Below, piece after piece: positions 27,472-61,647 of a stretch of DNA of 64,000 nt. The notes under the pieces are model-generated. The model was not told where the DNA came from, made no database searches, and worked only from the letters and a program-made list of their open reading frames with translations. The first letter of the stretch is position 1. The number at the start of each line of letters is the position of its first letter. A program made the position numbers and the translations under genes. The stretch spans positions 1 through 64,000 of the forward strand of contig RSEH01000229.1 of assembly GCA_006503475.1 (NCBI GenBank), given 5' to 3'. This DNA comes from Stentor roeselii. Taxonomy: Eukaryota; Ciliophora; Heterotrichea; Heterotrichida; Stentoridae.

Positions 27472-29394
27472 TTACACTAAACTAGCACAGATATGGTCAA
27501 AGCTTTGATTGTCTAGCGTTTTTATATCTTTCAACATGATTTTAGCGAGTTTTTTGTATTTTTCTCCCATACTTGGATCTTTTTTACGCAGGTTCTCTTC
27601 GATCATGACTGAAAGTTTTTCAGATTTTTCTAATGTGAAGTTTTTTTCAAGAAAGACTTTCAAGATTTCCTTTATTGCTGCTTGTTGTAAAGATAAGTCA
27701 AAGAATGGTTCATCAATTTTTTTTTCTAATTTCTGATTTTTTTCTGATTTTTTAGCTTTTTTTGTTTTTTCATTAAAAATTTCTGCTTTTTTTCGAGGCA
27801 CTTTTGCATTTTTTTCTGAGAAATTTTTGCGGATTTTTTCTCTGGTTCTTCGCATTGAATTTTCTCGTGATTCGGCTTCGAGTTGGTCTTTAACTTGATT
27901 TGAAAGATTTGGGGAAATTTGATGAAGATCTTGATTTTCTTCAAGGATTTCGTTTGTTTTCATTGGTTGTGGGCTGAAAGGAGTTACTTTTGAAGTTTCT
28001 TTTGAAGTTTCTTCGGTTGTCTTTGACTCGAATATTTCGTTTGACTTCAGAATGTTGTAATATTCAGATTTTTCTGATGTTATTGCTGGCTGGTACATTC
28101 TAATAGGTTGAGGCATGACGATTTCCATATAATTTACAAGAGTTATTTTAGATTCGAGTGTTAGGTCAACTCTTGGAGGAATGAGAAAGTCATTGTTTTT
28201 TACTTTTAGTAGATCTGAGCAAGGCTCGATCTTTTTTATTTCAAAGATTTTTTTTGGAGTTAGTGAATCTTCTTGGTTCTTTTTTTTGGATTCTTGGCTA
28301 GTTTCATCACTCTTTTTATGAAAACCGATATTTTCACATTGAAATCTGTTTTTTGTAAAAACCTTTTTAGAAAATCGATCATCATCAGAAAGCACTTCTT
28401 TTTCATCAAAACTTGAGTCTTTTTCATCTAAATCAAAACTATCTTGATCAGAATCATAACTTTCTTCATTATAATCATCGAAATTTTCTTCAAATTCACT
28501 ATTTTCATCAGAATCATGACTATTTTCATCAAAATCATTACTTTTTTCATCAAATTCACAAATTTTCTCATTATTCTTCAAATCTTCAACGCTCACCAGA
28601 GATTTCTTCAAATTCTTTTCAAAATCTTCTAAAGTCTCCTTAAGTCCATCAAGTTGATAAGCAAGTTGCAAGTCTTTTTTTGCAATATTTACTTTCCACT
28701 GAGCATAAATAAACTTCATGATTTTAGACAAGTCATTCAAAGTATCTCCTTTTCTATTTTCAAGAGAAAAAATAAGAATTTTCATAAGTTTCGTGAGTTT
28801 GAAATCTTTTAAGTCCTTTGTTGATATCTCAAATTCCTGAATTTTGATTAAAACAGATAAAAGATCGGAAGTTCGGAAATGATTTACCATTCGACCTAAA
28901 TCTTTAGAAATCTTTGACAAGTCTTTTGAAGAAGGCTTTGATTTCTGGGTTTTTGACTGAAAAGTCAGGATTTTCAAGTCATCTAAGAGGTTTGAATTTG
29001 TTTTTACTGGCTTTAAGACTGGCTCAGGACTTGTTTTGACTTGAAGAGTGAAACAGTCTTCGACTGGTGGTTTCGATTTGCTCGTCTTTTTCAGGTTTTC
29101 TAGAATTATTTTATTTGAGTGTTCCAGGTCGTTTTTGAAGTCCTGAATATGAATTACTGGTCTTGATGAGCCTTTTTGGAAGATTTTGTAATTGGACAGG
29201 AAGTCTTTCACCTTATCTTCTGGGAAATCGGCACTAAATAGGGTTTACTGTTGATTGCAGGAGAAAAACCGGATTCTCTTATAAACTTTATTCCTTTGGG
29301 TAAATGAGCACTCTTCCTAAGTATTTCTTACAATTCCTGGCCACCAAGGGTACCCCTTCATCTTGGCCCAGACGACGTTTACTAATTCGGACAT
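27472..29394 (-). CDS. PWWP-domain protein with TFIIS-N-like and TFIIS-M-like domains, three exons
   Basis: 630 residues after two 15-nt introns (29317-29331, 29234-29248). The first two short exons encode the PWWP motif: VVWAKMKGYPWWPGI, then ...RIRFFSCNQHADFPEDK as the second half of the PWWP barrel. Next comes a helical domain (about 135-230) resembling the TFIIS N-terminal/LEDGF IBD bundle. A highly acidic Asp/Glu/Ser run (about 270-310) and Lys-rich stretches follow. The last 75 residues match the start of a TFIIS central domain (EKYKKLAKIMLKDIKTLDN-like). Family knowledge: PWWP binds H3K36 methyl nucleosomes and TFIIS-type folds contact transcription machinery, as in LEDGF/IWS1-type elongation factors. 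It may read marks made by the SET-PHD enzyme at 3.4 kb (inference). Confidence 0.75.
28380..28570. repeat. Low-complexity Asp/Glu/Ser-coding stretch
   Basis: Imperfect repeats of TTTTCATCAAAATCA-like units on the plus strand, coding on the minus strand for DENSHDSDEN-style acidic runs inside the PWWP protein. A typical slippage-prone region. Confidence 0.7.
29234..29248 (-). other. 15-nt intron 2 of the PWWP gene
   Basis: Sense GTAAACCCTATTTAG, A at position 10. Joins CA to T (His) and opens the long third exon. Confidence 0.9.
29317..29331 (-). other. 15-nt intron 1 of the PWWP gene
   Basis: Sense GTAAGAAATACTTAG, A at position 10. It separates YPWWPGI from the next exon. Splicing joins codons cleanly (phase 0). 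Confidence 0.9.
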
Positions 29395-35784: not shown

Positions 35785-37002
35785 ATGGACTGGAACCTTC
35801 CTGAACCATGTGGAAAAATCGCGATTCCATCTCGAGAATACAAAGGAAATATCAACACAGATCAAAAACCTCCTACTAACCGTCCTCAGTCCTCCCAAAG
35901 TACCCGAGAAGAGTTTAAAATTCAACTTCCAGCCCGTCCATACCAACAACCAATTCCATCATTCCATCCAAATCCATCATTCCAGACCAACCCAAAGTCA
36001 AACATCCCAAACCCAAGCCTAAAGCAGAAATTTGAAGACCTTCACGAAAAACTAGAGAAAAAGCTTCAAAACAAGTTAAAACAAGCAGAAGACGACTACA
36101 AAAAAAGAATCATTGAAATCAAGCAAGAAGCAGAACAAGAAAAAAACGACCTGCTTGCCTTGGAGCATCTTTCCCTGAGTGACTCTCTGAAAAACACACC
36201 TTCAATCCCTTCAACCACGAAAGACCCAGCAAAGCAAGACCCTCCAAAGCCTCTTCTCTCAAAAGGCAAAGATTTCAACACGACACTTCTAGGCTACAGT
36301 CCTCAAGAAAGCCTTATCTCTCAAGACCTAAAAACCCTAAAACCGCTGAAGACCCCGAAAGACTTCTCCAAAGGAGGGGGGCTACTTCTATTAAAAGACA
36401 AGCAAGTTCTAATAGTCTACGGAAACGGGAAAGCCTCTCTTCTGACCCTCTCACAAAATAAACTCTCAAACCTTCCAATGTTCCCTCAGCCCAGAAGCTA
36501 CTTCGCCTTGACAATGATAGGAAAAAGTCCTGCAGTCATCGGAGGCATTTTAAACTCGTCAACCTGCTCCGAAGTCTCTATTCTGAAAAATCTTAACTAC
36601 TGGGAAAATGGAGCAGAAATTAACATTCCCAGGTCCCATGCCCGTGGAATTAAACATCAAGACTCAACTTATCTCTTCGCAGGTTTCAGTGGCGGGGCAG
36701 TGACTTCGATTGAGATGTTTTTCAATGAGTGGGTCGAGTTAAACGTGTTGATGCCTGCAGCGATTAACCATTTCGGACTTTGCTCGAAAAATCATGAAAT
36801 TTTTTTATTTGGAGGTGAAGACTCGACTTCGATTTTTCGGTCGGTTTATTCTTTTGACACTAGTTGTGAAAAGTTTTCAAGGAAGAAAAATTTGGGAGAA
36901 GAGTTTTCTTGTCGCAATGATGGAAGTGTTAGGATTGTTGATGGAGAGTTTTACTTGTTGAATGTTCAGAAGAGTAATGTGATTAAGTATGTTCCGGGGT
37001 GA
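35785..37002 (+). CDS. Coiled-coil and Kelch-like protein
   Basis: 405 residues. Residues 1-80 are Pro/Gln/Asn-rich and disordered. Residues 80-130 form a charged coiled coil (KLEKKLQNKLKQAEDDYKKR). From about 200 to 405 there are Kelch-type blades: repeats of ...AVIGGI..., ...YLFAGFSGG..., ...FLFGGEDSTS... with the diagnostic GG or G(F)SGG pairs followed by W or Y about 15 residues later. Kelch propellers bind proteins. It is divergent from the LRR gene. Confidence 0.7.
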   Translation: MDWNLPEPCGKIAIPSREYKGNINTDQKPPTNRPQSSQSTREEFKIQLPARPYQQPIPSFHPNPSFQTNPKSNIPNPSLKQKFEDLHEKLEKKLQNKLKQAEDDYKKRIIEIKQEAEQEKNDLLALEHLSLSDSLKNTPSIPSTTKDPAKQDPPKPLLSKGKDFNTTLLGYSPQESLISQDLKTLKPLKTPKDFSKGGGLLLLKDKQVLIVYGNGKASLLTLSQNKLSNLPMFPQPRSYFALTMIGKSPAVIGGILNSSTCSEVSILKNLNYWENGAEINIPRSHARGIKHQDSTYLFAGFSGGAVTSIEMFFNEWVELNVLMPAAINHFGLCSKNHEIFLFGGEDSTSIFRSVYSFDTSCEKFSRKKNLGEEFSCRNDGSVRIVDGEFYLLNVQKSNVIKYVPG

Positions 37003-37151
37003 TGTTAGATAGATTAGTCGAGAATAGGGGAGGTGAAAGTGTTGCCGAGATTTCTTTTACTGCTTTTCTCGAATCTTTTACTGTTTATGAACTCAGTGAT
37101 ACGTTTGCTCTTGTTTTGATGTTCTTCGAAAAGTTTGGATTGGTAGACACT

Positions 37152-38291: not shown

Positions 38292-40546
38292 TATTTATTA
38301 ATTTTTTTTTTCATGCAAGAGTCGCATGAGCTGGTGATTGTATTTCGACAGTTTTTGCAATATTCTGAGATATTATTTTGCTTTTTATAACAATTTCCGC
38401 AGTTTCTCTTCTCGGTTGTGGTTAGACTGGAAAAACAGAATGAACATTTTCTTGTCTTTGGGTTGATGGACGAGGAACGTCGGCAGGTTGTAGAACATGG
38501 GGTTTGGTTGCATTTTGGACATTTGGATAAAGGCTTTTGTTCTGAGGGTGATGGCTGAATTGAGGGGTTACCTGTTTGATATGAAAATCTTGAAGGACTA
38601 TCGATTTGTGGGGAATTTGTCAGGTCAGAATAAGCTTCTGGATTATAAGATTTTGTTAAATTTGAGTTACTTTTATTTTTCAATTCACAATTTTTGCAAA
38701 TATCTGAATCTTTCCTCCGATTACACACCTGACAAATATTATACTTTAAAGGAATTTTAGGTTTTTCTTCTGTAGGTACACTGCATTTAGGACAATCATC
38801 ATTTTGATTTTTCAGCAAATTCTTACAGTTAGAACATTCATAAATCCCATTACTTTTTTTCCCTTGCGATTGATTATCTATGTTAAAAACCTTAACTGGT
38901 CCTGAATTTCTAAAGCAATTTTCACATTTTCTTCCATTAATAACACTTTTCCCACAGTTTGGACATTCATTAGAGGTAAACATAATTTTAACTTTAGCCT
39001 TTTGACAAAAGGGGCAAGTTGGTTCATTTATTGAGTATTCTTTATTGCAAATTTGACAAATTTTAGTCAAAAGGTATTTACACTTATAACATTTTGTATT
39101 AGTTTCAGATTGAGAAGTCCTACAATTATTGCACTTCACTTTTAAATTTTTTTTAGGTTCAGGAGAAATTTGATGTTCAACGTGATCACAATAAAGACAT
39201 GATTTTGCATCAATTTTTAGAATTTTATTGCAATTATCACATTTTTTATTTAATTTTGTTTTACAAGAAATACATTCAAGATTATTTTCAGGCTGATAAT
39301 TTTGGCAAGTGTTACATTTTATTGTTTTTAACTCTTGGTTCATTAAAACATGAGTTTCGCTTTGAGTTCTTTCACAGTTAGGACATGATTTAAGTGAACT
39401 ATGAAAATTTGATCTGCATTTTTTACAAGTTTCACTGAAAAATTTAGGACATCTTAAACATTGATTATTTGAAGTTGCTTGAAAATAACCGCAAGAGCTG
39501 CATTGAAATTTTTCAACAGGTTGTCGAGTTCTAGATTTTTCAGTAGTTTCAAAAAATGCAGAAGGCTCTTTACGATAGATGATCAAGTTGATTATTGGTG
39601 AGGAGGTAGAAAGAAGAAAAACCATGTTATGATTATCGAAATCAGCTCCAGTATTATCATACCAACAGTCTTTCAAGTATTTATAAATAAAGCTTTCATT
39701 ATGTTGATTTCTTGCTTCAATCAAAAAAATCGAGTAATTCTGTGAAAAAACCAAATTTTCGCCCTTTATTTTCAGGTCAAAGTCGAAATTTTCTATTTGA
39801 AATTCAGTTGGCTGGTCACAACTCACTTCTAGGATAAGATATTCAGGAAAAATTTCAATATTTTCATCTTGGTATAAACTTTTTTTGAATTTGCATCCAT
39901 TTGTTTTACATATTTTTAAAAATTTTTCTTTCAAACTATTTCGATAAAACTCGAAAATTGTCAGATTTTTTAGAAAATTTTGGTCTTTTATCGAAACTTT
40001 CAATGAAAACTTAGAAATTTGCATTTTTAACACTTCTTGACAAGAGCACTTGAAAGTAGTTGAAAGTTGCAAATTAAAAAAACTTGCTAAATTCAATTTT
40101 TTTGAACATTCAAGTCTTTCCAGGTCTTTAAGCAAGACATTTAAAGCGTCCATCACAGAATCTACTTCGAAGCCATCAACATAAGAAGAAAATTCTGAAT
40201 TTTCTATATATTCAAAAGAAATCATCTCAGTACAAGTGCTATTTGAAACCAAGATTTTGCAAAAGAACATTCGAATTCCACAAAACAAGCAATTGCATCG
40301 AGGATTTAATTGAGAAATCGTATCAAAAGTTATTTTTCTGAACTTTTCACAGCAGAACCTGAATAAAAATTACAAAATTTTCAGAGCTTCTTCGAAATTT
40401 CTAAATTTTGTTGTTTCTTTTGAGTAAAAACAAGGAATGGTTGTATATGTAAAGTCATCGTTTAGAACTTTTTTGAATTTTACACAGTTTTCGATGTGCT
40501 TGGCTTCCCATCGCTTCTTACAAAACAAGCATTCATTATTTTCCAT
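38291..40546 (-). CDS. Multi-zinc-ribbon protein, two exons
   Basis: 746 residues after removal of a 15-nt intron at 40359-40373. The N-terminal exon starts MENNECLFCKKRWE. From about residue 325 onward there are more than ten CxxC...CxxC knuckle pairs (for example CSSCGY, CNTCQN, CDNCNK, CPNCGK, CQVCNR), each like a double zinc ribbon (DZR). These structures usually bind zinc and mediate protein or RNA contacts. The unusual number suggests repeated expansion. Its TAA overlaps the ATG of the coiled-coil gene downstream. The WD40 gene starts 65 bp upstream on the opposite strand. Confidence 0.75.
40359..40373 (-). other. 15-nt intron in the zinc-ribbon gene
   Basis: Sense GTAATTTTTATTCAG, A at position 10. 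Joins TT to G (Leu) and continues in frame. Confidence 0.9.
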
Positions 40547-58700: not shown

Positions 58701-59244
58701 TTCCGATTGTTCCTGGAGAGGGATCTTGATAAGTTTTTGAATAAGTAAATTTTATAGCTCCATTTACTTCTATTTTGAAAGATGATCCATCATACGAAAA
58801 TGATATAAGCTGCCAAACATCTGTCTATAAATTACTAGCTAGAAAAGTATTTGCTGTAGCATTTATTGATTCAGAGGTTGTTGATGAACTATTATAATCA
58901 AACACAAACATTTTGCTTATCCTTTTGACATTAAATGAAATTCCTGATGGAGATGATGAGTTTTTAAACAGAATCCAGCCCTCTCCACTTTCAGGTAAAG
59001 TCCAAAACACTACTGAAAATGTTTGAGGAATTGTAAAATTGCTTGGCACCATAACGCACCTTGGATGTGCTGACGTTGATTTGATATATAAGCCTCTGTC
59101 AGTAGTTCTTGACACAAAGTTTTTGCAGTTCAATCCGTGATAATGATTCAAAGAAAAATCGTAGTAAAATTTACCATATGAGTGTCCAAAGCGATATTCA
59201 ACCAGAGCAGAAAAGACTAGAGTTACTAGAAATACAAACTTCAT
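52702..59244 (-). CDS. Giant LamG/Cys-rich multi-pass membrane protein, four exons
   Basis: 2165 residues after three 15-nt introns. Order: signal peptide (1-14), LamG/concanavalin-like domain (about 20-225), then about 1400 residues of furin/GFR-like Cys-rich repeats (CxxC...CxxC), then several transmembrane helices (about 1900-2165) with short loops. Nine repeats of 43 residues in the middle are almost identical. N-glycosylation sites (NxS/T) are frequent. This architecture is common in ciliates for large cell-surface or ion-channel-like proteins, but the function is unknown. No kinase or channel motif was seen. The C-terminal splices extend the membrane domain into the last exon (MSQIYLNDF...), which otherwise would look like a separate gene. 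Confidence 0.8.
53293..53307 (-). other. 15-nt intron 3 of the Cys-rich giant
   Basis: Sense GTATTTTCTAATTAG, A at position 10 (position 4 is T). Opens the last exon, which carries the remaining membrane segments. Confidence 0.8.
53365..53379 (-). other. 15-nt intron 2 of the Cys-rich giant
   Basis: Sense GTAATAATTACTTAG, A at position 10, phase 0. Continues into a short exon of 57 bases. Confidence 0.85.
55960..57125. repeat. 129-bp tandem repeat array, nine copies, in the Cys-rich gene
   Basis: The string CCTTGAAGACAAGG or a close variant recurs at 56036, 56165, 56294, 56423, 56552, 56681, 56810, 56939 and 57068, exactly 129 bp apart. Each unit encodes 43 residues with eight Cys. The units are highly similar but not identical, as in recent expansion or homogenisation. 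Confidence 0.9.
58821..58835 (-). other. 15-nt intron 1 of the Cys-rich giant
   Basis: Sense GTAATTTATAGACAG, A at position 10. Splicing joins the LamG-like strand into WQLISFSYDGSSFKIEVNG, a typical LamG motif. Confidence 0.9.
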
Positions 59245-60043: not shown

Positions 60044-61647
60044 CTATTCCCAAATACTAATTCCCCCAGAAATATCAATAGCTGCTAATTGACTTTCATT
60101 AGGATTCCACTGGACAGATACCACAGGTTTATCAGAAGCAGGTAAAACTGTGACGTCATTTCGCAGAAAGTCCCAAGTAATAATCTTCCCATTAAAACTT
60201 CCACATGACAGAAATTTCGACATCGGACTAAACGAAATTCCAGATTTCACCGATGGACATTTAAGGTCTTTATGTGAGAGCCTTGCCAAGACCTCCATCA
60301 TTCTCATATCAAAAATAACAAGTCGATTGTTTCTCATTTGCCCAGCGATGTAATTTCCACAAGGACTGAATTCGCAAGAAGTTACTGCGGATGACTCAGT
60401 AACTAACTTAGTACATTTATTTGAATTTTGAAGCCATAAGCCTAATGTTCCATCTTTATGGCCTGTTAGGATTGATGAGTCTAGAGAACTGGCTGATAAG
60501 GAGTAAAGAAGAGAAGACAAGTTGATACTTTTCATAGAATATCCTCTAGTGACATCCCAAAAACGAAGAGTAAGATCCTCAGCACCCGTAACAGCAACAC
60601 TTCCAAACTTAGTAAACCCGGTTCCATTGATTTTCGCTCCATGTCCATTTAACTTGTGCTTCAATTTCGCATTATTAAAATTCCAGAGGTACCCAGCCCC
60701 CGAAGAGCATCCTCCCAATATCAGATCATTACTATCAGAGACACTCATAGCAAGAATAGTCTGACTATATCCAGAAAACGATTTCCTTTCAATGCCATTC
60801 AAATGATCCCAGACCTTCAATTTTTTTTCAGATCCAGAACTGAAAAGAACCGAGCCTGATTTATTATAAGCTACAAGAATTCCTTCAACTTCATGTGCCT
60901 TGAAATCTGCCAGGTTTCGATGAGGACTTTTTACATTAAAAGACCTGGAGTACTTCTCGTAACAAGGATCATCATCAACTATTTCATAGTCGTCAATACT
61001 TACATCAATCGACTTTGATCTTTGCTTCATCTGTTGCATCATGGAAAAAATTTCATCTTCTCGAGTCATGCTTTCTTCTTTCATTTTAAGCATTTGAGAA
61101 ATGATGTTGTTGCTTTCTTTGCTGAGTTTATTGTTATCTTCTATTAATTTGTCGATTTTTTTATTTAGGTTTTCTTGTTCATTTTTTAGGATTTCTTGCG
61201 AGATCAGAAGGGTTTTAATGAAATCGCTGAGATCTTGTCGGTGATGAGAAAGTTCTTCATGTTTTCTTTGGTCTGATAAAATATCTTTGCAGATTTGGTT
61301 GAATTCTTGTTGAAGAGGCTCGATTTCTTCTTTTAATTCTAGGATTTTTTTTATGTTTTCTGATTTTTGCTCGTATTCGATGCCTAATGAATTTTTGATC
61401 GATGCTATTTTTGATTCTATTTCTTCGCAGTTGATGTTTGATCTGATTAGGTTTACTGGAAGGATGATCTTAGGATTTTTATTTGGCTGTGTTTTACGAG
61501 GGACTCGTAACCCAGGTGGGTGGTTTCTGAATGGAGATTGTTGTCTGATTGAAAATTACAGACTTCGATGATTGTTTTAAATTGATGGGTTTGGAGTTTG
61601 TTTCTTGAAATTAGAGATTCTTTTATAGATTCTTTCCAGGGATTCAT
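60044..61647 (-). CDS. ATG16: Autophagy protein ATG16 (ATG16L-type), three exons
   Basis: 524 residues after removal of a 15-nt and a candidate 14-nt intron. The N-terminus MNPWKESIKESLISRNKLQ...FKTIIEVYNNL matches the ATG5-binding start of ATG16L1 (W...RDRLQ...FEEIILQYNKLL). A coiled coil (about 65-190) follows, then a seven-bladed WD40 propeller (about 230-524) with typical ATG16L ends (WDHLNG, FWDVTRG, TWDFLRN, and ISIWE at the C-terminus). Family knowledge: ATG16 scaffolds ATG12-ATG5 to lipidate ATG8; the WD40 domain directs conjugation to single membranes. The N-terminal match supports the start and the first intron. The second intron is needed to keep the frame. Confidence 0.85.
61443..61456 (-). 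other. Candidate 14-nt intron 2 of ATG16
   Basis: Sense GTAAACCTAATCAG, one base shorter than the rest. Branch-type A stays six bases from the 3' end (position 9). Removing exactly 14 bases corrects the frame into QSNINCEEIES, continuous with the coiled coil. A sequencing loss of one A in the run after GT would also explain it. Confidence 0.6.
61545..61559 (-). other. 15-nt intron 1 of ATG16
   Basis: Sense GTAATTTTCAATCAG, A at position 10. Splicing gives IIEVYNNL, which fits ATG16. Without splicing the frame also stays open, so it would be missed by frame analysis alone. Confidence 0.75.

Follow-up and report, generated by a model that had tools for sequence, protein, structure and literature searches.

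The ATG16-like gene located on the reverse strand at positions 61647-60044 of the window (the whole 64,000-nt stretch of DNA analysed here, G000:C149:1-64000, which is gene-dense and belongs to a 44.4 Mb genome in 522 contigs) is predicted to contain an intron just 14 nt long, GTAAACCTAATCAG. We put at roughly 85% the probability that this element is a genuine U2-type spliceosomal intron and belongs to a rare 14-nt class, nearly all other introns of the genome measuring 15 nt; this estimate is based on gene structure, homology and motif counts in the genomic DNA.

Exon 1 of the gene (61457..61647, minus strand) starts with the ATG at 61647 and ends with ..TTC CA, in phase 2. The predicted intron follows on the same strand at 61443..61456, with its GT at 61456-61455 and its AG at 61444-61443, and exon 2 (60044..61442, minus strand) encodes a coiled coil and WD40 repeats before a TAG stop codon. 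When left unspliced, exon 1 is open from its ATG up to a CAG TAA. Following the frames after removal of exactly 14 bases gives a continuous product of 529 aa that displays an N-terminal W..I..SL..R motif, which we take to be like that of ATG16, followed by the coiled coil and the WD40 repeats. The 14-mer pointed out in an earlier, sequence-only reading of this DNA is therefore present, and its removal does join the N-terminal exon to the coiled-coil/WD40 exon. The same reading had further held that the frame could be followed only if exactly 14 bases were taken out; the repair of the frame stood but its uniqueness did not, since a jump of 11 nt, one of 29 nt or a single base lost upstream has the same effect.

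Indeed, the frame of exon 2 is open upstream of the intron as far as 61555 (38 codons), so that the reading frame alone is indecisive. Comparison of the alternative products to the Pfam ATG16 family (PF08614, cut-off 33.7 bits) gave 23.1 bits for the 14-nt-spliced product, 23.0 for the 11-nt and 18.5 for the 29-nt one, all below the cut-off, and the first two are inseparable by this measure. A length-neutral gene finder run without splice-site scores chose the 11-nt jump, and a run that included splice-site scores, allowed 12-40 nt and had no length preference chose the 14-mer unprompted.

In its organization the 14-mer resembles the other introns of this genome. It begins with GT and ends with AG (61456-61443), as expected of a U2-type intron, its splice-site and branch-A pattern matches that of the other introns, and its removal restores the frame, although not uniquely, the restoration being stricter for other 14-mers described below. 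Its splice score of 9.5 falls inside the spread of 5.2-11.2 occupied by 35 of the 36 scored 15-mers (the remaining one is an outlier at -0.8), which bears out the likeness to 15-nt introns that had been noticed by eye. Ordinary 15-nt introns used as yardsticks in the window, all on the minus strand, were GTAATTTATAGACAG at 58821..58835 in the neighbouring long gene, GTAATTTTTATTCAG at 40359..40373 and GTAAGAAATACTTAG at 29317..29331. The feature that sets the ATG16-like intron apart is its length, 14 nt, which lies outside the 15- or 16-nt class of heterotrich introns. A full-length match to U2 snRNA (142.6 bits) was found in the genome at G000:C18:116696-116887, on the minus strand.

The position and phase of the intron are also conserved in a homolog. 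A second ATG16-like gene, located on contig G000:C476, shares 30% identity with the 529-aa product over residues 4-528 and scores 53.2 bits against the Pfam ATG16 family. It carries a 15-nt intron, GTAATCTCCAAAAAG, that lies in phase 2, as does the intron in the window, and at most one alignment column away from it. Since the paralog has an intron at the matching site, an intron belongs here, and the question narrows to whether it measures 14 or 15 nt. Introns of 15 and 14 nt at one site in two paralogs would also constitute a natural pair for testing how so short an intron is spliced.

The overall distribution of intron lengths was assessed in 314 kb of sequence (the window, C339:1-200000 and C391:1-50000) with the splice-site-scored finder, introns of 12-40 nt being allowed with no preference for length. 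This census yielded 153 genes, representing 235 kb of predicted genes, and 61 introns, 52 of which are 15 nt long, three 14 nt, one 13 nt and five 24-40 nt; none of the 61 is 16 nt long. The five jumps of 24-40 nt are unexplained and could conceal a few frame errors. Under a harsher setting, the figures were 50 introns of 15 nt, three of 14 nt, none of 13 or 16 nt and three of 24-40 nt, with two called frameshifts instead of one. Neither frameshift is real: the first, at window position 38293, corresponds to two abutting genes, and the second (C391:49920, harsher setting only), like the weak 13-mer at the same place, falls where a gene runs off the fetched stretch with its frame open to the end. 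An A at position 10, leaving a 5-nt tail, occurs in 49 of the 52 15-nt introns, none of which bears a TAATCAG tail. That tail is carried by both of the firm 14-mers that were not selected through it, namely the ATG16-like intron and that of an EF-hand gene.

The EF-hand gene provides the second of the three 14-nt introns in the census. The sequence GTATTTTTAATCAG at C339:36852-36865 interrupts an EF-hand whose 12-residue loop, DEHNMG^SIGFKE, is restored by its removal, and the spliced product scores 45.2 bits against EF-hand_7. The third, GTGATGTTAGATAG at 36999-37012 on the plus strand of the window, is doubtful; removing it adds ca. 60 codons, and the ORF stop at 37002 may be the true end of the gene. 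In a strict two-sided coding test applied to the 314 kb, 2 of 31 candidates of 14 nt were called spliced (the EF-hand intron and the doubtful one at 36999), along with 26 of 90 at 15 nt, and no spliced call was returned among 174 candidates of 13, 16, 17, 19 and 20 nt or among 39 of 18 nt. At 12 nt there was one call out of 35, at C339:53727, which was rejected because it is really a 15-mer, GTAAGAAAAAAGCAG. The ATG16-like site received no spliced call in this test, in our reading because the exon-2 frame is open upstream of it.

Because both good 14-mers end in TAATCAG, the genome was searched for GTANNNNTAATCAG, which was found at 106 sites, only slightly more than the 90 of the reversed pattern. 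Among the 100 matches listed of these 106, 44 start with GTAA, and 40 of the 44, sharing the form GTAANNNTAATCAG and all distinct from the ATG16-like site, were submitted to a frame test. Nine were called frame-restoring upon removal, two were in frame when unspliced, one was in frame with stops and none showed the third frame relation; at the other 28, no flank pair reached the threshold of the test. In a control performed on ten of 30 sites of 13 nt, one was spliced but tied with unspliced, three were unspliced, one showed the third relation and five were sub-threshold.

Several of the nine frame-restoring 14-mers lie in conserved genes. When spliced, a NEK7-like kinase (L067, on C440) aligns over 150 residues ungapped across the junction, and a U1A/U2B''-like RRM protein (L060, G000:C378, 7088-7101) over 76 residues ungapped. 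Pfam scores of the spliced products reach 145.9 bits for TruD (L065, on C432), 51 bits for an RRM protein (L030) and 28.8 bits for Sec10 (L057), and the joined product of TFIIIC Tau95 (L047, on C123) scores 84.6 bits versus 18.6 and 53.9 for its halves. L052 and L055 are backed by coding scores alone, and the product of L054 has no Pfam match. The margin of the frame test over another frame relation is below 4 in five of the nine (L030, L054, L060, L065 and L067), and for these homology decides all except L054. A different situation is observed at L053 (G000:C213, 184146-184159, minus strand), where GTAAATCTAATCAG contains two in-frame stops within an otherwise continuous coding frame; there, a removal of 3n bases would be needed despite the 14-nt motif, and an A6 run lies just upstream.

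Spacing counts over the whole genome point in the same direction for one of two motifs. The pattern GTAA-N(k)-TAATCAG occurs 30 times at 13 nt, at least 44 times at 14 nt (among the 100 matches listed of 106), 176 times at 15 nt and 30 times at 16 nt, the excess at 14 nt being about one tenth of that at 15 nt. For GTAAG-N(k)-TANNTAG the corresponding counts are 43, 51, 643 and 39, with little excess at 14 nt, and because this excess is small the 14-nt class would be rare and sequence-dependent. We read the 14-mers as a true, if rare, class of spliceosomal introns limited to some sequences. The proposal that the ATG16-like 14-mer is an intron now draws support both from the paralog, whose 15-nt intron matches it in place and phase, and from these further 14-mers in conserved genes.

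The sequence-only reading had itself raised the caveat that a base might have been lost from the A run after GT, the genuine intron then being an ordinary one of 15 nt reduced by an assembly error. Two observations agree with this: the 14-mer corresponds to the 15-nt pattern minus one base, and the intron of the C476 paralog is 15 nt long. Against it, the run comprises only three A's, and random base loss would not prefer TAATCAG tails, which the 15-nt introns of the census lack altogether. Lost assembly bases are also a poor explanation because none of the frameshifts called across the 235 kb of predicted genes is real, even if the five long jumps could hide a few more; an artefact of this kind would therefore require a loss rate in introns far above that in coding sequence. 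In the worst case, in which all five long jumps are frame errors, ca. 5 errors per 235 kb would translate into ca. 0.06 expected over the 176 TAATCAG 15-mers (2640 bases), whereas five or more of the other 14-mers, all in conserved genes, are backed by homology through ungapped alignments or strong family matches. For the 14-nt class as a whole, we consider base loss excluded as an explanation; for the single ATG16-like site it is conceivable and unlikely, so that the caveat survives in this narrower form.

Even less probable is that the frame is mended by a different jump, either the 11-nt GTAAAACACAG at 61487..61497 (minus strand) or a 29-nt GT..AG sequence that shares the start of the 14-mer. 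Both leave an open frame, and the 11-mer, besides having been preferred by the finder run without splice-site scores and giving a product equivalent in Pfam terms, has a splice score of 8.7, in which its two halves overlap. However, an intron of 11 nt would be still more extreme, with its branch A falling at position 6, the 29-nt product has the lower family score, and neither jump begins or ends at the intron site of the paralog. With splice-site scores the 14-mer beats the 29-mer, the 11-mer being out of competition in that run because its minimum was set at 12 nt. It is just as improbable that there is no intron at all and that a base was lost in assembly, or a true frameshift arose in a decaying gene, somewhere between 61555 and 61443: the open upstream frame of exon 2 would allow it, but the paralog has an intron at this very site, a near-perfect splice motif sits precisely at the frame break, and the frameshifts called elsewhere in the 235 kb are spurious.

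If the 14-mer is an intron, as we favour, GTAA would serve the spliceosome as 5' site and the terminal AG as 3' site, with the branch forming at A9 or at its neighbour A10. Branching at A9 would give a lariat loop of 9 nt and a tail of 5 nt, and branching at A10 a loop of 10 nt and a tail of 4 nt; in the 15-nt introns the loop has 10 nt and the tail 5. Since the TAATCAG 14-mers have an A at both positions 9 and 10, either the distance to the 5' site (A10) or that to the AG (A9) can be kept. When counted separately, sites having A10 alone showed no excess, with 116 at 14 nt versus 180 at 13 nt. The splicing of the RNA at the 14-mer, like the role of A9 or A10 as branch point, is inferred from the sequence, the frame arithmetic, the intron of the paralog and the further 14-mers in conserved genes. 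As to its origin, the 14-nt intron most likely derives, through loss of one base from the stretch separating the branch A from the 5' site, from a 15-nt ancestor that occupied the site and was kept in the ATG16-like paralog. More generally, we consider it quite probable that the genome harbours a true, sequence-restricted 14-nt class of spliceosomal introns, probably the shortest known, in which the AA doublet before TCAG would supply a branch A that fits a 15-nt-type spliceosome from either end. The lower length limit would then be set by branch-site context and not by a fixed 15-nt ruler.

Heterotrich introns described in the literature, as far as the accessible text goes, measure 15 nt in about 93-95% of cases and otherwise 16 nt. 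Of the 8806 introns of Stentor coeruleus, 8173 have 15 nt and 633 have 16 nt, and the branch A usually occupies position 10 or 11 (PMC9505925). The introns studied here share with these the GT..AG ends and, in the 15-nt ones, a branch-type A at position 10 and a 5-nt tail, but differ in that ca. 7% of the S. coeruleus introns are of 16 nt and that the accessible portions of that paper mention no 14-nt intron, whereas our census contains no 16-nt intron and a 14-nt class is predicted. Blepharisma stoltei, according to the sections available, likewise combines tiny introns, predominantly of 15 and 16 bp, with a compact, AT-rich genome of 41 Mb, but UGA encodes tryptophan there (PMC9942806) whereas TGA is a stop codon here, 84 ORFs of at least 300 aa in the window and C339 ending with TAA (42), TAG (28) or TGA (14). 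With all three standard stops in use and introns almost uniformly of 15 nt, the genome probably belongs to a heterotrich ciliate that follows the standard code. Very short spliceosomal introns are known as well, from the accessible parts of the respective papers, in Loxodes magnus, but with a mode of 17 bp and a negligible number below 16 bp (PMC11441545), and in mikrocytids, but all of 16 or 17 nt (PMC10245619). A 2025 paper, in its accessible part, sets its shortest intron against the 15-nt Stentor intron (PMC12316389). The supposition that 14 nt is shorter than anything described agrees with the literature searched, which leaves many subscription papers outside its reach and in which 15 nt, one base more, was the minimum found and no report of 14-nt spliceosomal introns appeared. 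Matches there to "14-nt" or "14 bp" introns, as far as their text could be consulted, turned out to be a retained intron piece, an insertion and two indels. If confirmed by RNA, 14 nt would be a new shortest length among known spliceosomal introns, one base under the printed minimum, insofar as the accessible literature is representative.

Such introns, if real, would imply that the spliceosome binds both splice sites and the branch site within 14 bases. Gene models and RNA mappers that impose a 15-nt minimum would miss them and label the genes concerned as broken. How U1/U6 and U2 can find room on so short an intron would also become a sharper physical problem. The gene encoding the U1A/U2B''-like splicing protein itself carries its predicted 14-nt intron near its start.
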